IMG/VR virus record: IMGVR_UViG_3300021963_000600 | Coordinates: 1 to 25,345 of that record | Strand: one strand, 5' to 3' | From: a virus | DNA length: 25,345 nt | Shown: piece after piece, positions 16,529-25,345 of the stretch | How positions within the stretch are numbered: position 1 is the first letter of the stretch | How the letters are laid out: each line of letters opens with the position of its first letter | Notes under the pieces: model-generated | The model's input: the letters and a program-made list of their open reading frames with translations, nothing else | Databases searched by the model: none | Told to the model about the DNA's origin: nothing | Translations under genes and position numbers: made by a program

Positions 16529-18100
16529 GTGACCGTGTCAATATCTGAAGAAGAACTTGTTGAATCCCTTGAGGACTTTGGTGACGCAGAGGAATTAGAC
16601 GAAACCTCTGCCGAATTCGTTGACCAGTTGGTCAAGCGCATCATCATCTTCACGGAAGAGTTCTGTGATGTGGAGTTTTTCCCCTACCAGATTCCGATTG
16701 CCTACCGCATCGTAGAGTCCACCGTTCTTGGTGATGGTGATTTGATGACCGTGGTCGCCACCCGTCAGTCAGGTAAATCAGAAGTTCTGTCAGCAGTCAT
16801 TGCTGGCATGATGGTCATCCTGCCCAAGTTGGCCCCCATCTACCCGACATGGTTGGGCAAGTTTGAGAAGGGTTTCTGGGTCGGCACCTTCGCCCCCACG
16901 GAGGAGCAGGCTGACACGGTGTTCGGGCGCATCGTCAGCAAACTGACCAGCGACCACGCCCTGGAGTTCCTCCTTGACCCCGAGATTGACGACAAGGCCA
17001 CTGGCGGTGGTACCCGTGGCCGTGGGCGCCTCATCACCCTCAAGAACTCGGGCTCCCTCTGCCGTATGCAGACCTGTAACCCCAAGGCCAAGATTGAGTC
17101 CAAGACCTACCACATGGTTCTTGTGGACGAGGCTCAGGAGGCCGACGAGGTCATGGTGACCAAGTCCATTGCTCCGATGCTGGCCTTCAACAACGGAACC
17201 ATGGTCCTCACGGGAACTGCCAACCGTTACAAGTCCTATTTCTACAAGATGATTCAGTACAACAAACGCCGTTCCGCCAACGGTGGGCGCAAGTTCCGTG
17301 AATCCCACTTTGAGTACGACTGGCGCACGGCTTCTAAATATAACCCTAACTACGCCAAATTCATTGCCAAGGAAAAGTTAAGGATTGGCGAGGACTCAGA
17401 TGAGTTCCAGATGTCGTACTGCAACAAGTTCATCCTTGAGAAGGGCATGTTCGTCACCGAGGAGCGCATGGAGCGCCTGTACGACCCCTCCATGCCCCTG
17501 GTCAAGGAGTGGTGGCGTACCCCGTGTGTGGCGGGTATAGATGTGGCCCGCTCCAACGACTCCACTGTCGTGACCGTGTGTTGGGTGGACTGGGACCATC
17601 CAGACCCGTTCGGGTTCTACGAGCATCGTGTCCTCAACTGGTTGGAAATCAACAACGAGGAGTGGGAATCCCAGTACTTTGAGATTATTGACTTTCTCCG
17701 CCACTACGACATCCTCCGTGTGGGGGTGGACGCACAGGGCGTCGGCGGAGCCGTGGCGGAGCGCCTCGCACTGCTGTTGCCCAACATTGATGTGCTTCCC
17801 GTGTCCTCGGATTCCAAGGCGCAGAACGAGCGGTGGGTCCACTTGACCGAACTCATCCAGAGAGAGCAGTTAATTCTTCCAGGACATTCCAAGGCCCGCA
17901 GGACACGCTCCTGGAAACGGTTCAACCAGCAGATGTCTGACCTTGAAAAGGTGTACAAGGGCCCCTATCTGTTAGCCGCCGCTCCTGACGAAAAGGGCGC
18001 ATTTGACGACTACCCTGACTCGTTGGCTATCGCCTGCTCCATGACCGTCATGGACACGATGCCCGAGATTCAGGCGTCCAACAGCCCCTTCTTCAGATAG
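16529..18100 (+). CDS. terL: Terminase large subunit
   Basis: Encodes 523 residues, the packaging motor ATPase and genome-cutting nuclease that docks on the portal. The ATPase domain has Walker A ATRQSGKS (77-84), Walker B MVLVDEAQE (196-204) and the coupling motif TGTAN (228-232). The RNase H-like nuclease has acidic residues in GIDVA (D338), VGVDAQG (D401) and FDDYPDSLA (about D494 and D497). Length is normal for TerL. The GTG at 16529 gives the longest form, but GTG 16535 fits the TATAAT element better; the difference is two residues. All 16 glutamines are CAG. No small terminase subunit is obvious nearby. Confidence 0.97.
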   Translation: MTVSISEEELVESLEDFGDAEELDETSAEFVDQLVKRIIIFTEEFCDVEFFPYQIPIAYRIVESTVLGDGDLMTVVATRQSGKSEVLSAVIAGMMVILPKLAPIYPTWLGKFEKGFWVGTFAPTEEQADTVFGRIVSKLTSDHALEFLLDPEIDDKATGGGTRGRGRLITLKNSGSLCRMQTCNPKAKIESKTYHMVLVDEAQEADEVMVTKSIAPMLAFNNGTMVLTGTANRYKSYFYKMIQYNKRRSANGGRKFRESHFEYDWRTASKYNPNYAKFIAKEKLRIGEDSDEFQMSYCNKFILEKGMFVTEERMERLYDPSMPLVKEWWRTPCVAGIDVARSNDSTVVTVCWVDWDHPDPFGFYEHRVLNWLEINNEEWESQYFEIIDFLRHYDILRVGVDAQGVGGAVAERLALLLPNIDVLPVSSDSKAQNERWVHLTELIQREQLILPGHSKARRTRSWKRFNQQMSDLEKVYKGPYLLAAAPDEKGAFDDYPDSLAIACSMTVMDTMPEIQASNSPFFR

Positions 18101-19006: not shown

Positions 19007-19866
19007 TGGCTTTTTTTGAAGTCAACCCCACAAAAAATCCTGAGAATTTTGCCCAGGCCAGGAACCGCCTGAAGAGCATGATGTTGGGCGCTACTGACCA
19101 CCAAGTTGAGCGTGGCCGTGCTTGGTATGACCTGGCGGAGGATTCGGCCCGCTCAGGGTCCGCAGATATCGGCGTGACACATTCTTCAGGGGCAGGAATG
19201 ATGTCGGCTGTATCTCCAGCCTTGGACTTTTCCGAGCACAATGTCCATGTGCTTCATGAGATGGGTGCTATGAGACCAGAGCACCATGCGATGGTTTTGG
19301 CGAGCCTGTCACACCAGAGAAAGGTGTCTGAGGCCAACCGCCTTCTCCGAGGAGAGGGGCACCCAACTCTGCGGTCTGGTCGGTTGCCAGAAGTAGAATC
19401 CATGCTGACTGAGTTGTACCCACACCTGTCTCGTGCCACTGACTTCAACATTGCTGATGCCATGCGCATTAGGGAGGGAGCAGAGCCAGGAGAGGTTCTC
19501 AACAGAAAAACACGGCCTAAGACAAACAGTTTTTGGCGCAATCTTGCTGGTGACAGGGATGTCGTGACAGTGGATTACCGTGCCGCTGATGTGGTGGCTA
19601 ATCAAATGAGGCCAGTGCGGGGACCACAGTCCAACAGAGGGATTAGTTCGGCGTTGAGTAGTCGTGGACCCACCAGGTACGAGGACTACGCCCATGTTAT
19701 TGCCTCATCTTCTGCTCTTCCCAGCGTTCAAAAAAGGATGCCTGGTCTCAAGCCTGCGGAAGCACAGGCACTTCAATGGGTTATCGCTAAAGACATGGAG
19801 TTGACCAACCCTGATGGTAGTCCCAGAGGCAAGGGCCCTGCGAGAAAAGGACAGCCCTATTTCTGA
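19006..19866 (+). CDS. DUF7178-like phage protein
   Basis: Encodes 286 residues. The order of motifs matches, from memory, a phage family annotated DUF7178: GMMSAVSPALDFSEHN (~64-79), KTNSFWRNL (172-180), VVTVDYRAADV (186-196) and YEDYAHVI ... AEAQALQWVI (225-260). The function is not known to me. The VTVD..AADV segment with its acidic residue and the W/Q-rich end recall helix-hairpin-helix nucleic-acid enzymes, but that is speculation. A basic tail ends GQPYF, similar to the C-terminus of the protein at 2585. It starts on TAATG and ends on TGATG. Confidence 0.78.
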   Translation: MAFFEVNPTKNPENFAQARNRLKSMMLGATDHQVERGRAWYDLAEDSARSGSADIGVTHSSGAGMMSAVSPALDFSEHNVHVLHEMGAMRPEHHAMVLASLSHQRKVSEANRLLRGEGHPTLRSGRLPEVESMLTELYPHLSRATDFNIADAMRIREGAEPGEVLNRKTRPKTNSFWRNLAGDRDVVTVDYRAADVVANQMRPVRGPQSNRGISSALSSRGPTRYEDYAHVIASSSALPSVQKRMPGLKPAEAQALQWVIAKDMELTNPDGSPRGKGPARKGQPYF

Positions 19867-20078
19867 TGGACCCAGCACTCGCAACCATTGTTGTCGCACT
19901 CATCACCACCGTGGGTGGTCTGCTCGGTGTGGCAATCAAAGAATTCAAATCAATGAAGAAGACCAACACTGATGACCACGGCAAGGTGATGGCTCGCCTG
20001 GAGAAAGTACAGGACAGCGTTGACCATGTTGCCGAGCGTCTTGATGACCACATTGATTGGCACTTGACGAAGAAGTAA
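19866..20078 (+). CDS. Small membrane protein with coiled coil
   Basis: Encodes 70 residues. One hydrophobic segment (ATIVVALITTVGGLLGVAI, ~residues 6-24) is followed by a basic stop-transfer KEFKSMKK and a coiled-coil tail (MARLEKVQDSVDHVAERL). This topology is common among phage lysis-associated proteins such as XhlA- or DUF2746-like types. It is coupled to the previous gene by TGATG. Role as holin partner or membrane anchor is inferred. Confidence 0.78.
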   Translation: MDPALATIVVALITTVGGLLGVAIKEFKSMKKTNTDDHGKVMARLEKVQDSVDHVAERLDDHIDWHLTKK

Positions 20079-20112: not shown

Positions 20113-20119
20113 AGATGAT

Positions 20120-20144
20120 GGGGAAAGTCCCCTGTACATGTACA
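20120..20144 (+). promoter_or_regulatory. Structured leader: short hairpin plus 12-bp palindrome
   Basis: GGGGA (20120-20124) pairs with TCCCC (20128-20132) over a three-base loop. Right after it, TGTACATGTACA (20133-20144) is a perfect palindrome. The ribosome site AAGGAG follows at 20149-20154. The palindrome could be an operator for a dimeric repressor or an RNA element controlling the gene at 20160. Confidence 0.42.
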
Positions 20145-20159
20145 CCACAAGGAGAGACC

Positions 20160-20435
20160 ATGTCTGAGGACAAGAGGTCGTTGTTTGAGGATTTGATGAG
20201 TCCTCGCCCAGACAACAATAGTCAGTGCAAGGTGCACACCATCATGTCAGAGATGGACGACAAGGACCGTGAGGCATTTGCCAAGGCAATTGACATGGTC
20301 AAGGCCGACAAGGGACAGGGTCGGTCACGCACCTACAGCGCCTCCTGGCTGACCAGCGTGCTGAAAAAGCACGGGCACATCATCAGCACCAGCACGGTGC
20401 TCCGACATGTGACTGGAGCGTGCTCCTGTGAGTGA
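20160..20435 (+). CDS. Small HTH-like phage protein
   Basis: Encodes 91 residues from ATG 20160, five bases after AAGGAG; an earlier ATG at 20115 is in the leader and is rejected. The C-terminal half reads like a recognition helix-turn-helix: SASWLTSVLKKHGHIISTSTVLRHVTGACSC. A conserved Cys near the start (CKVHTIMSEMD) pairs with the terminal CSC. From memory, similar small proteins with the 'loop helix then RHxxGxCxC' ending are common in actinophages. It could regulate transcription or act as a small-terminase-like DNA binder. It overlaps the phosphoesterase gene by eight bases. Confidence 0.78.
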   Translation: MSEDKRSLFEDLMSPRPDNNSQCKVHTIMSEMDDKDREAFAKAIDMVKADKGQGRSRTYSASWLTSVLKKHGHIISTSTVLRHVTGACSCE

Positions 20436-21570
20436 CCTCGCATCAGACCTCGCCACCCCAGAACACAAGGCCAAGGCGCTCGGCAAACTCGTTGAGATGC
20501 TTGAGCGACAGAACATTGACCTGGCCGAGATTGGCTCCGTCAAGCGTGTCTCCCTGTATCAGTCTCTGACAAAAGATGAAGAGGGCGAAGCCCAGATTCA
20601 CGACCTGTCTGCCATCCAGTTTTCCCCCAAGTGGGCAGATGGTCCAGAGTGGAACCCAGTCAACCAGGGGCCAGCCATCAAGTTGCCAAAGACCACAGTC
20701 AAGACCAGCACAGCCGACTGGAAGACCTGTGTGGTCCTCCCAGACATTCAGGCAGGTTTTTTCAGAGCCACAGATGGCTCACTGGTGTCTACTCACGACC
20801 CACTTGCAATTGACTACGCCATTGCTGTGGTCAAAGCAGAGAAGCCTGATGTGGTGGCGCTCAACGGAGACAATGCGGATTTCCCCGAGTTCGGGAAGTA
20901 CCGCTTGACCCCAGCGTTCGCACTTACGACGCAGGCGACCATTGACTACCTGACCACTCTCTGCGCACGCCTCCGTGATGCGGCCCCACAGGCTCGTATC
21001 GTTTGGCTGGAGGGCAATCATGAGGCTCGTCTGACCAACTACATCCTGGATAACGCCAAGGCATCGTTTGGTCTTCGTCAGGGAAACACCCCTGAGTCGT
21101 GGCCTGTCCTGTCCATTCCGTTTCTTTGTCGGTTTGATGATTTCGGTGTGGAGTATCTCCCTGGCTACCCAGCGAGCCAGTTCTGGCTCAACAACCGCAT
21201 CAAGATAATCCATGGCACCAAGGTGGCGTCCAACGGCTCTACTGCTCATAAGTACCTCGCTACTGAGAAGGCGTCTGTCGTGTACGGACATATCCACAGG
21301 AGGGAATGGGCCGAGCGTACCCGCAACGACTGGGACGGCGCAAAGACTATTGCGGCCATCTCGTTCGGTTGTTTGGCCCGTGTGGACGGCATGGTCCCCT
21401 CCACCAAGGGTGGTTCGGACCTGGACGGTCGCCCCATCACCTGCGTGGAGGACTGGCAACAGGGTCTAGGCATCATCCGCTACAAGGAGGGTGACGGTCC
21501 GTTCCATCCCGAGATGCTCCCTATCCACGATGGGGTCATGTTCTACAAGGGCAAGGTGTACGGAGAGTGA
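20428..21570 (+). CDS. Calcineurin-like metallophosphoesterase
   Basis: Encodes 380 residues from GTG 20428. The C-terminal ~280 residues show the metallophosphoesterase motif order: LPDIQ (D106, with Gln108 where His is usual), GDNAD (147-151), GNHE (196-199), H262 in IIHGT and GHIH (287-290). These bind two metals and cleave phosphomonoesters or diesters, possibly nucleic-acid ends or nucleotides. The first ~95 residues are an extra helical region (KALGKLVEMLERQNIDL) unique to this protein; they may bind DNA. It is tightly coupled to the flanking HTH-like and protease genes. Confidence 0.9.
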   Translation: MSDLASDLATPEHKAKALGKLVEMLERQNIDLAEIGSVKRVSLYQSLTKDEEGEAQIHDLSAIQFSPKWADGPEWNPVNQGPAIKLPKTTVKTSTADWKTCVVLPDIQAGFFRATDGSLVSTHDPLAIDYAIAVVKAEKPDVVALNGDNADFPEFGKYRLTPAFALTTQATIDYLTTLCARLRDAAPQARIVWLEGNHEARLTNYILDNAKASFGLRQGNTPESWPVLSIPFLCRFDDFGVEYLPGYPASQFWLNNRIKIIHGTKVASNGSTAHKYLATEKASVVYGHIHRREWAERTRNDWDGAKTIAAISFGCLARVDGMVPSTKGGSDLDGRPITCVEDWQQGLGIIRYKEGDGPFHPEMLPIHDGVMFYKGKVYGE

Positions 21571-22184
21571 CCACGATTGTCGGTATTCAAGGGGACACCT
21601 ATGCTCTGGTGGCTACCGACAGTCGCATCTCGTCCATTGACGAATCTGGGTTTGCCTTCCAGATAACCACCCTCGGGTCAGGGACCTCCAAGGTGGCCAC
21701 CAACGGAAAGTACATCCTGGGGGCGGCTGGTGATGCCAGAGCCATAAACATCCTCCATCACGCCTTCATCCCCCCAGCGCCTCCCGCCCACTCCTACGGC
21801 AGGAAACTAGACCAGTTCATCACCAGACAGTTTATTCCTGCGTTGAGGCATGTGTTTGATGACCAGGGGTATTCACTGCCTTCTCGTGAAAGTTCTGACC
21901 ATATTGCGGAACATTCTTCAACGATTGTTGTTGTAGTCCACGGCACTTTATACATCATTGAAGGTGATTACTCATGGACATCGGATACTTCGGGCATTTA
22001 CTCAATTGGGACAGGGTCGTCGTATGCCCTTGGCGCCTTGCAGGCTTTAATTGGTGGTAAGAAACTGACCCCCCAGCAGGCCAAGACTGTGGCTACCAAG
22101 GCCCTGACCGTAGCCAGCAAGTTTGACCCCTACACGGGCTCCCCCTTCCAGACCTACCTGCAAGAACGAGAACCCAAAAAATAG
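21567..22184 (+). CDS. Proteasome/HslV-like Ntn-hydrolase, candidate prohead protease
   Basis: Encodes 205 residues from GTG 21567, which overlaps the upstream stop (GTGA). Removal of the initiator Met would expose the catalytic Thr (MTTIVGIQGD), as in HslV. The proteasome-type residues are all in place: mature Thr1, Asp17 (ATDSR), Lys41 in SKVATNGKYILGAAGD as the Lys33 equivalent, Ser in GTGSSYALGAL (~150-158, Ser129 equivalent), and D187-x-x-T190-G as the Asp166/Ser169 pair. There is no propeptide. HslU- or Mpa-like partners are not seen. It sits between terminase and portal genes, and no other prohead protease is visible, so head maturation is a plausible role. Anti-host protein turnover is an alternative. 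Confidence 0.88.
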   Translation: MTTIVGIQGDTYALVATDSRISSIDESGFAFQITTLGSGTSKVATNGKYILGAAGDARAINILHHAFIPPAPPAHSYGRKLDQFITRQFIPALRHVFDDQGYSLPSRESSDHIAEHSSTIVVVVHGTLYIIEGDYSWTSDTSGIYSIGTGSSYALGALQALIGGKKLTPQQAKTVATKALTVASKFDPYTGSPFQTYLQEREPKK

Positions 22185-22196: not shown

Positions 22197-22517
22197 ATGG
22201 CAGTTAACTCACAAGTCAAAGACCAGTCCATCAAAGGTCTCATTCTCGGCGCAGTCGCTTACTTCCTCGTCAAGTGGAATGTGGATGCCGAGGCCCAGGC
22301 TGGCATTATCACAGCCGTGACCGCTGGTCTGGCATACGCCAGCACCAAGGTTGGCGACAAGAATGTCGCCTCGTTCCTCGCCAAGGCCGCTAAGGAAGCG
22401 CCCAAGGTCGTGGCTGAGGTGGCTGTTGCTGTGGAGCAGGAGAAGAAGGCTGTGGCCAAGAAGGCTCCAGCAAAAAAGGCCCCCGCCAAAAAGGCCGCCC
22501 CCAAAACCTCCAAGTAA
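22197..22517 (+). CDS. Membrane protein with histone-H1-like tail
   Basis: Encodes 106 residues. A hydrophobic N-terminal part (~15-46: GLILGAVAYFLVKW and AGIITAVTAGLAYAS) forms one or two membrane helices. An amphipathic Ala/Lys/Glu segment follows, and the tail (KKAPAKKAPAKKAAPK) is a Lys/Ala/Pro repeat like histone H1 or bacterial HU tails, with strong DNA-binding potential. This fusion of membrane and nucleic-acid-like parts suits a holin with a basic tail or a protein that anchors DNA to the membrane. A leaderless TACAAT promoter precedes it. Confidence 0.78.
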   Translation: MAVNSQVKDQSIKGLILGAVAYFLVKWNVDAEAQAGIITAVTAGLAYASTKVGDKNVASFLAKAAKEAPKVVAEVAVAVEQEKKAVAKKAPAKKAPAKKAAPKTSK

Positions 22518-22536: not shown

Positions 22537-24228
22537 ATGGCAATGGATTTCTGGTCCCCTTCATACAGGGCGGCTTCATCTGACCTTACCGTTGCTATCT
22601 CACCCCTTGGACTCGTTGAACTTGCGGACGAAGAGTTTGAGGTCCATGGTCCACGGCTGAACCGTTATGCGGCCGCTTGGGCTTGGTACCTCGGCCACCA
22701 CTGGTCATACCGTCGTGAGATGGGCGAGTCCCAGTTCTACATGAACTATGTCCGCACCATGTCGGACTACATCACCAACTTCTGCTTCGGCAAGGGAATC
22801 CAGTTCCGCACGCCTGAGGCAAACGCCGCAATCATCCCCCGCCTCCTGGCAGATGTGTGGGAGGGGCACAACCACAAGCATTATGTACTGTGGGAGATGG
22901 GGCAGTTGGCATCGGTCACTGGTGACTGCTTTGTCAAGGTTGCTTACGAGGAGCCGTATGTGGACGCCGTGGGAATCCCTGTGGCTGGTCGTATCCGTGT
23001 CATTCCCCTGAACCCAGCACACTGCTTCCCTGAGTACCACCCACACGACAGGGACCGCCTCCTCAGGTTCAAACTTAAATACCGTTTCTGGGGCACCTCT
23101 CCTGAGGGTACACGGCAGGTGTACACCTTCACCGAGATTCTGTCGGATGACCTCATCCAACAGTTCATCAACGACGAACTTGTTGACGAGTACCCCAATG
23201 CGCTCGGTCAGATTCCAGTCGTGCATATCCCGAACACATCCATCTCCTCGTCACCATGGGGTCAGTCAGACATCTGGGACATCATCCCGCTGAACCGTGA
23301 ACTCAACGAGAAGATGCTTGAGGTCTCCGACATCATCAACTATCACGCCGCCCCCGTGACCATCATCACTGGAGCCAAGGCTTCCCAGTTGGAGCGTGGT
23401 CCCAAGAAGGTGTGGGCTGGTCTCCCCAAGGATGCCAGCGTGTTCAACCTTGAGTCCCGTGGTGAGATGTCGGGAGCCCTGGAGTACATCCAGTTCCTGA
23501 AGCGCACCATGCACGAAATCACTGGTGTCCCTGAGACTGCTCTCGGCCAGTTCCAGCCCGTGTCCAACACTTCTGGCGTGGCCCTGGCCATCCAGTACCA
23601 GCCAATGATGAACCGCTTCATGATGAAGAAGGTCCATTTCACCAAGGGTCTTGAGAAAGTAAACGAACTCATCATCCGCACAGCGGCTGTGTTTGAGCCA
23701 CAAATGCTGGTGTATGACCCATCCCGTTCGGCCATGCCAGAGCGTGACCAGTTGACCCAACTGGACCCCATGGACCCGAACACCTACAAGACCACCGTGC
23801 ACTGGCCCGAGCCACTGCCTGTGGATGTCCTCATCAAACTCAACGAGGTCCAGGCCAAGATGGGCCTCGGCCTGGAGTCCAAGCGTGGCGCCCTGCGCAT
23901 CCTTGGCGAGGAGTTCCCGAACGAGAAGATGGACGAAATCTTTGAGGAACTGCAAGACGACGCAATGGACCAGGGTGCCCTGGACATGATGCGTGCCCAA
24001 ATCCAGCAGGCCATCATGCTGGCAACGGGAATGGTCGCTGGCCCTGGTGGGCCAGAAATGGCGTCTGCTGGGGGTGCTAATGTGTCCCCAGCAAACGGTT
24101 CTCCAGAGGGCGGTCCACTGCCTGGTCCAGTGGTCGGTCCTATGGAGGAGCAAATGGTAAACCAACTTGTAGCAAAGGCTTACGGAGCCAGGTTCGCCCA
24201 ACGGCGGGTCCCTGGCGAAGAAGACTAA
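22537..24228 (+). CDS. Portal protein (SPP1 gp6-like)
   Basis: Encodes 563 residues, the dodecameric ring through which DNA enters the head. The family pattern is visible: an N-terminal region with RTMSDYITNFCFGKG, a core with VTGDCFVKVAY and IRVIPLNPAHCFPEYH, a stretch IWDIIPLNRELNEKMLEVSDIINYHAAP, and a conserved TGVPETALG ... NTSGVALAIQYQPMM motif typical of SPP1-type portals. The C-terminal 70 residues are Gly/Pro-rich and acidic (PGGPEMASAGG, GEED). Start at ATG 22537 follows TAGGAT by six bases. It is followed by the scaffold and capsid genes. Confidence 0.93.
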   Translation: MAMDFWSPSYRAASSDLTVAISPLGLVELADEEFEVHGPRLNRYAAAWAWYLGHHWSYRREMGESQFYMNYVRTMSDYITNFCFGKGIQFRTPEANAAIIPRLLADVWEGHNHKHYVLWEMGQLASVTGDCFVKVAYEEPYVDAVGIPVAGRIRVIPLNPAHCFPEYHPHDRDRLLRFKLKYRFWGTSPEGTRQVYTFTEILSDDLIQQFINDELVDEYPNALGQIPVVHIPNTSISSSPWGQSDIWDIIPLNRELNEKMLEVSDIINYHAAPVTIITGAKASQLERGPKKVWAGLPKDASVFNLESRGEMSGALEYIQFLKRTMHEITGVPETALGQFQPVSNTSGVALAIQYQPMMNRFMMKKVHFTKGLEKVNELIIRTAAVFEPQMLVYDPSRSAMPERDQLTQLDPMDPNTYKTTVHWPEPLPVDVLIKLNEVQAKMGLGLESKRGALRILGEEFPNEKMDEIFEELQDDAMDQGALDMMRAQIQQAIMLATGMVAGPGGPEMASAGGANVSPANGSPEGGPLPGPVVGPMEEQMVNQLVAKAYGARFAQRRVPGEED

Positions 24229-24289: not shown

Positions 24290-25093
24290 ATGGCAAAGAA
24301 CACAGCCCCTGAAGGGGACATCATCAGCATCCCCAAGGATTCTCCGCAAGTGGAGCAGTTCGTGGATGATGCGCTGAAAAAGACAAGCACCAAGACCTTC
24401 ACTGAAGAGGATGTGGAAGCCATCCGCAAGCAGGAGAAGGACAAGATGTACAAGCGTCTTGAAGAGGCCGACCTCCGTGTGAAGAGCATGGAAGAGCAGA
24501 TGGCCATCATCGCTCAGGAGCGTGAGGCGGCCCGCAAAGAGGCCGAGGAGCGTGCGGCCAAGGAAGCAGACATCCTCCGCCAGCGTGAGATTGATGAAAT
24601 GAGCGCCAAGGAACTTCTCCTGAAGAAAGAGGACGAGTTCAACCAGCGCATCAACACCGTTGAGCAGGAGTGGCAGGAGCGCCTTGCCAGCATTGAGGCA
24701 CAGCGTCAGGCACAGGAGGCTCTCCTTGAGAAGGAGCGCCAACTCCAGGCACTGGACCACTACCGCAACCAGCGACTCCAGCAGGAGCAGGAGAACATCA
24801 TCCCCGAACTTCTGGACCTCATCACAGGTAACACGGAGGAGGAGATTGAAAACTCCATTTCCGTACTCAGGGAGCGTTCTTCTGCTATTATTGAGTCAAT
24901 CCAGCAGGCGACTGCGGCCACCCAAGGTCGTCTGAGGGGAGCGCCAGTTACGGCACCCCCCGTTGGGCCAATGGAAACTCAAACGGAATACCAGCAACTG
25001 TCGGCGGATGATATCCGCAATATGTCAATGGAACAGTACGCAAAAATGCGGGAACGGCTCCTGAATGCACGGTCTCCCCGAGGCCGTTTCTAA
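24290..25093 (+). CDS. Scaffold-like coiled-coil protein
   Basis: Encodes 267 residues. About residues 35-165 are nearly continuous charged helix (Glu, Lys, Arg, Ala and Gln, e.g. KEAEERAAKEADILRQREI, RLASIEAQRQAQEALLEKE), a long coiled coil. The C-terminal region has QQEQENIIPELLDLITGNTEEEI and a tail ending SPRGRF with a basic cluster that could bind capsid. Position between portal and capsid genes, composition and length match scaffolding proteins. GAGG at 24277-24280 serves as ribosome site. No protease domain is fused. Confidence 0.85.
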   Translation: MAKNTAPEGDIISIPKDSPQVEQFVDDALKKTSTKTFTEEDVEAIRKQEKDKMYKRLEEADLRVKSMEEQMAIIAQEREAARKEAEERAAKEADILRQREIDEMSAKELLLKKEDEFNQRINTVEQEWQERLASIEAQRQAQEALLEKERQLQALDHYRNQRLQQEQENIIPELLDLITGNTEEEIENSISVLRERSSAIIESIQQATAATQGRLRGAPVTAPPVGPMETQTEYQQLSADDIRNMSMEQYAKMRERLLNARSPRGRF

Positions 25094-25130: not shown

Positions 25131-25345
25131 ATGGCCTATCCAGGTCCCGCAGGCGGTGCGATTACCACCGCTGGAGCAACAACCGCTACAGGTTACTCGT
25201 CAGGCGAGTACCTTAGCCCAGCAATCCAGACAATCTGGTCCAAGGAGATTCTGTTCCAGGCGATGCCCGTGCTTCGCTTTGAGCAGTTCGCCGTGAAGAA
25301 GACGGAACTCGGTGTCATGCCAGGTCTCACCATCAACTTCATGCG
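25131..25345 (+). CDS. Major capsid protein, N-terminal part (cut by window edge)
   Basis: About 71 residues are visible before the right edge. After a Gly/Thr/Ala-rich start (YPGPAGGAITTAGATTATG) comes LSPAIQTIWSKEILFQAMPVLRFEQFAVKK then GLTINFMR, matching the N-terminal pattern of N4-gp56-type major capsid proteins (W-S-K..L...A.P.L...QF..K). It follows the scaffold gene and has a strong AAGGAG site. The rest of the gene lies beyond the window. Confidence 0.85.
   Translation, partial: MAYPGPAGGAITTAGATTATGYSSGEYLSPAIQTIWSKEILFQAMPVLRFEQFAVKKTELGVMPGLTINFM

Follow-up and report, generated by a model that had tools for sequence, protein, structure and literature searches.

The protease gene and its neighbours

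The stretch of DNA analysed here, called the window below, is a virus record of 25,345 nucleotides (25.3 kb). It is a fragment, which ends inside the capsid gene. The region running from the large terminase gene to the capsid gene contains the features listed here, with residue counts referring to distinct viral sequences.

16529..18100, + strand: large terminase (TerL; PF17289, phrog_2)
19866..20078, + strand: 70-aa protein with a hydrophobic N-terminus followed by a charged helix, putatively holin-like from its sequence and position
20115..20435, + strand: small protein, putatively HTH-like from its sequence and position (weak matches to phrog_3979/phrog_1738)
20428..21570, + strand: calcineurin-type metallophosphoesterase, MPE (PF00149, 1.1e-4; phrog_20266, 7.7e-78)
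21567..22184, + strand: proteasome/HslV-type Ntn threonine peptidase, 205 aa, GTG start (PF00227, phrog_1040, AlphaFold2 fold)
21570..21572, + strand: codon of the predicted catalytic Thr1 (residue 2 counting Met), T in 75/75
21618..21620, + strand: codon of the Asp17 equivalent (D18), D in 75/75
21690..21692, + strand: codon of the Lys33 equivalent (K42), K in 75/75; profile alignment with HslV ARKV/KKV
22011..22013, + strand: codon of Thr149, which stands where HslV/20S have the GSG 'Ser'; 40 of the 75 sequences have T here and 35 have S
22125..22139, + strand: DxxTG element, D-P-Y-T-G (D187, T190, G191), with D, T and G in 75/75
22197..22517, + strand: small membrane-protein-like ORF (DUF4226; PF10774, 5.4e-5, and sequence)
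22537..24228, + strand: portal, SPP1 gp6-like (PF05133, 3.8e-29)
24290..25093, + strand: scaffold-like coiled-coil protein, assigned from sequence and from its position before the capsid gene; no family hit
25131..25345, + strand: major capsid protein, truncated where the window ends (phrog_1357, 8.5e-6; full-length homologue, 1.6e-64)

The stop of the MPE gene overlaps the start of the protease gene by 4 nt (21567-21570). An earlier note on this DNA had placed the protease between the terminase and portal genes. The order was right, but the gene does not lie beside the terminase, as five ORFs intervene: an unknown ORF, a gene for a DUF7178 protein, and the holin-like, HTH-like and MPE genes. 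Relatives additionally carry a VanY-type putative endolysin gene in the stretch from TerL to portal, and in loci L118, L076 and L167 homologues of the 70-aa holin-like protein adjoin such an endolysin. The L118 homologue of the HTH-like protein gave a weak match to HTH_Tnp_Tc3_2, below the cut-off. Pfam and PHROG profile searches found no protease domain in the scaffold-like protein, and a scan for promoters and terminators returned signals near chance level. The MPE gene was seen next to the protease gene in several differing contexts, including ones devoid of head genes, and is retained where the protease is absent.

Family, active site and predicted fold

The product of 21567-22184 scored above the curated cut-off of the Pfam Proteasome family (PF00227: 35.3 bits for a cut-off of 22.4, 1.2e-8), and matched phrog_1040, the 'peptidase HslV family', at 3.5e-26. 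It fell far under the cut-offs of both HslV equivalog models (TIGR03692, 31.5 of 157.75 bits; NF003964, 33.3 of 137 bits), and also missed that of the actinobacterial 20S proteasome beta subunit (TIGR03690, 16.4 of 191.9 bits). The profile search that the earlier note had proposed as a check thus left the protein inside PF00227, with HslV (33.3 bits) ahead of the archaeal beta subunit (27.1 bits) and of 20S_bact_beta (16.4 bits). Among solved structures, the bacterial enzyme BPH came out as the top sequence match (2.4e-4). Entries for alphaRep that a profile search of solved structures returned were discarded as repeat artefacts.

Relatives were collected by scanning viral contigs with the protease; 80 of the 171 found were retained. 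Across 75 distinct viral sequences, Thr2, Thr3, Asp18, Lys42, the Gly55 region, Asp187, Thr190 and Gly191 were invariant. K42 was taken as the Lys33 equivalent because the profile alignment with HslV supports it: K42 aligns with HslV Lys33 inside 'KV..NGK.L.G.AG', about 8 extra residues preceding it. The Thr after the initiator Met, the Asp17 and Lys33 equivalents and the DxxTG pair, all described earlier, are therefore not only present in the window but kept throughout the 75 sequences, as is the oxyanion Gly. The GSG-type Ser of the same description has to be corrected, as the window has Thr149 instead (I-G-T-G-S), at a position shared by the two residues among relatives. At the aligned start, M/V-T-T was found in every one of the 82 loci from the first scan, certain ORFs having further in-frame start codons upstream, and this bears out the lack of a propeptide claimed before.

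An AlphaFold2 model of the protease, computed from an alignment of 47 sequences that omitted one row from a named phage record, reached a pLDDT of 90.4 and a pTM of 0.87. Foldseek placed BPH first (E 3e-11, TM about 0.7), followed by HslV and 20S beta subunits, and listed 37 viral proteins at E < 0.001, some of which are phage proteins that had been annotated as HslV or as a proteasome subunit. The model thereby supports an Ntn fold, which settles in the affirmative, at the level of prediction, a question that the earlier note had left to structure prediction. Helix H2 is present in it, at residues 78-99, and between strands 3 and 4 it has only a longer hairpin. Given the PF00227 score, the phrog_1040 match and the residues invariant in 75 sequences, the combination of family match and active site is more than chance. 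We conclude that sequence and model support membership of the proteasome/HslV Ntn superfamily, with a predicted complete catalytic set.

Among solved structures, BPH of Thiobacillus denitrificans (5OVS/5OVT) gives the best match in both fold and sequence, and the pore-loop stretch aligns without gaps, but identity to the window protein is only about 18-19% and BPH is a bacterial enzyme. HslV, the peptidase of HslVU, shares the TT N-terminus, the fold and the active site; the window protein differs from it by its low score against the HslV model, and no AAA_2 unfoldase was found in window-type phages. In phages, group-I proteasome homologues (PPH, AAH and CPH) were described by Fuchs et al. in 2021 (PMC8665760), whose survey found neither a functional context nor an AAA+ partner for them, and AAH in no Actinobacteria-specific phage. 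A literature search returned nothing on the function of phage proteasome homologues beyond that paper. The window protein resembles PPH, AAH and CPH as a group-I homologue of Caudoviricetes with a Thr1/Asp17/Lys33 site, no propeptide and no dedicated AAA+ partner identified. PPH differs in being about 140 aa long and in missing helix H2 (PMC8665760), so the 205 aa of the window protein and its H2 rule out that identity.

Head modules with and without the protease

A portal-based scan gave 80 loci. The junction between MPE and portal was intact in 79 loci, 63 with the protease gene and 16 without it; some of these loci share a contig, and their distinct portals number 53. In the latter, the slot is filled by an ORF of 98 aa that has no protease match, and the two genes were mutually exclusive in 16/16 records, one of 94.5 kb. 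No copy of the protease gene was detected elsewhere in the longer protease-less records, up to 94.5 kb (about as long as related contigs), these records being 'linear' contigs of IMG/VR whose completeness is unproven. The 98-aa protein belongs to phrog_25889 and is encoded at L084:8668-8964; it occupies the slot likewise in L083, L095-L098, L100-L103, L111, L112, L115, L135 and L136. Its structure model was unusable (pLDDT 43).

Portal, scaffold and capsid proteins of the protease-less loci were up to 93, 85 and 91% identical, respectively, to the references (for the capsid, the protein of locus L007). On the portal tree, presence or absence of the protease changed 4 times (3-4 in bootstraps), at least 2 of these changes being forced by well-supported branches. 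Scaffold and capsid aligned colinearly in loci with and without the protease, and no long N-terminal extension of the capsid protein was visible in the alignment of both classes.

Profile searches of window-type records, with or without the gene and up to 94.9 kb long, turned up neither an S78 nor a ClpP-type protease, and a scan of the structural genes in one protease-less record found no protease; the S77 profile is left out of account, as it matched no control genome. The absence of a classical prohead protease, claimed earlier, therefore holds in the window, itself a fragment, and, for the S78 and ClpP profiles, in relatives up to 94.9 kb. The earlier note had named a different prohead protease, encoded downstream of the capsid gene, as evidence that would speak against its proposal; none was found in the window's phage group. 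The window protein itself matches none of the known prohead protease families S78, S14 and S77 in Pfam, and has a predicted Ntn fold instead. Head assembly is not known to require a protease in phages that, like SPP1 itself, combine an SPP1-type portal with a separate scaffold. Comparison of the two classes of loci shows, as judged from their gene content, that the protease is dispensable for building a window-type head, which is most simply read as a head that can do without a protease and would assemble in an SPP1-like manner.

Among 67 portal-sharing loci, 43 have a protease less than 65% identical to that of the window; conversely, 23 of the 65 loci without that portal nearby have a protease that is at least 65% identical to it. 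Portal and protease identities still correlated across loci (Spearman 0.72), which is expected within lineages. In a quick protease tree, several branches of which are long, the proteins of head loci were polyphyletic, with 5 changes, of which at least 2 were forced. Divergent proteases on a shared portal, close ones without the portal, and the polyphyly of the head-locus proteases together show, at the sequence level, that the gene has been exchanged at its slot independently of the head genes.

Elsewhere the protease gene had MPE and WhiB genes, or ThyX and a holin-like gene, close by, or was one of the small genes of giant phages; its recurring neighbours were MPE, WhiB, ThyX and lysis-type genes. 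Relatives annotated 'protease' are gene 81 of Arthrobacter phage Hum25 and gene 135 of Microbacterium phage Pumpernickel, which lie away from the head genes or adjoin ThyX. The protein WJZ48484.1 of phage DSL-LC01 belongs to the same phrog_1040 family and is 47% identical to that of the window, but its gene adjoins WhiB, about 5.4 kb upstream of TerL. Four more distant carriers with other head modules (G025, G027, G028 and DSL-LC01) encode an S78-type protease in addition to the proteasome-like protein, and in the first three it follows the portal. S78 prohead proteases are, like the present one, tailed-phage proteases encoded near head genes, but their fold and catalytic class are unrelated, and the two coexist in these four carriers. 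At L164:2728-4815 the S78 prohead protease is part of a 695-aa fusion that also includes DUF6321 and a domain resembling ferritin/Dps, and at L165:5917-12000 an S78 domain is N-terminal in a very long ORF (open frame of 3988 aa).

A search with the AAA_2 profile for an unfoldase gave no match in 12 window-type records, up to 94.9 kb, the window itself being a fragment. Giant carriers (loci L158-L162, records G022, G020, G019, G024 and G021) have a gene for an AAA+ protein whose D2-small domain is of ClpB type (family test in L158); this gene lies near recA in at least three of them, and is not adjacent to the protease gene. An HslVU system with a phage-encoded unfoldase was rejected for window-type phages, as AAA_2 with the ClpB-type D2-small domain occurs only in some giant carriers.

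Origin and possible roles

WhiB genes were present in 16 of 19 related records; among 14 control genomes they were found only in Corynebacterium. The hosts are therefore very probably Actinobacteria, of freshwater, in line with the actinobacterial host suggested earlier. The further suggestion that the phage took the gene from its host's proteasome did not stand. Such hosts could have supplied a 20S beta subunit, but 20S_bact_beta scores lowest of the three profiles, the nearest structures are BPH and HslV, a search of 84,980 species genomes returned a single match, on a phage-looking contig, and a plasmid search with the protease returned none. Profile scores and structure lead us to reject capture from a host 20S proteasome, to which we leave only a very slight chance. 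The contig with the single match (L167), in a MAG labelled Gammaproteobacteria, carries endolysin, holin-like, MPE, protease and WhiB genes; the simplest explanation, and a probable one, is that phage DNA was binned into this MAG by error.

We favour, with a probability of about 0.6, the view that the window encodes a phage-borne group-I proteasome homologue of BPH/HslV type, an exchangeable accessory gene whose product likely turns over proteins of the host or of the phage inside infected cells. Removal of the initiator Met would expose Thr1, which is expected to form the catalytic site together with Asp17 and Lys33; these residues are observed, and the chemistry would be that of the superfamily. 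If BPH and HslV are a guide, the protein probably forms a ring in which the active sites are enclosed. Since no dedicated unfoldase was found in the window's phage group, it may act unaided on small or unfolded proteins, or else rely on a host unfoldase.

The earlier note had offered two functions, maturation of the head and degradation of host proteins, and the latter appears the more likely. As a prohead maturation protease, the enzyme would cut scaffold and/or capsid inside the procapsid. The location of its gene between terminase and portal, the scaffold-like protein encoded downstream, and the lack of any S78 or ClpP-type protease in the window's phage group, or of any protease among the scanned structural genes of a relative, are what one would expect in that case. 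In 16 of 79 loci, nevertheless, the same portal, scaffold and capsid genes occur without the protease and the 98-aa ORF fills its slot, so that a role in head maturation is left unsupported; the colinear capsid and scaffold, the capsid's lack of a visible long N-terminal extension, the independent exchange of the gene, the separate S78 protease of other carriers and the SPP1-like head organisation argue against it as well, and we regard it as improbable. As the protease is encoded among late genes in the window group, it may still have a useful but non-essential role in the virion.

A narrower version of the accessory protease favoured above, which we consider possible but doubtful, would make the ring an effector of host takeover or counter-defence that removes a particular host regulator or defence protein. 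The 98-aa protein would then be the alternative occupant of the slot. Swapping at a single slot, repeated exchange, and the WhiB and ThyX neighbours in other phages are in keeping with it; against this, no function is known for the 98-aa protein, whose structure model is of no use. An Ntn enzyme that is not hydrolytic, a protein ligase or transpeptidase, is also conceivable, as the superfamily includes the ligase connectase, but what defines connectase is an insertion of two helices between strands 3 and 4 (PMC8665760), where the model has only its hairpin, and we think this unlikely.

Phage proteasome homologues as such have been known since 2021 (PPH, AAH and CPH); what is new is a well-populated actinophage branch, large and, to judge from its conserved residues, apparently active, with 171 viral stretches in the first scan and WhiB-carrying phages among its bearers. 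The tempting reading as a proteasome-type head maturation protease is removed. We put forward, tentatively, that a mini-proteasome, self-compartmentalised and independent of an unfoldase, may serve phages of aquatic Actinobacteria as an exchangeable effector of host takeover or counter-defence, its slot between terminase and portal being filled in others of the group by a small protein whose function is possibly equivalent. Phages that share a head module but differ in having the protease form natural pairs, in which its role can be tested directly.
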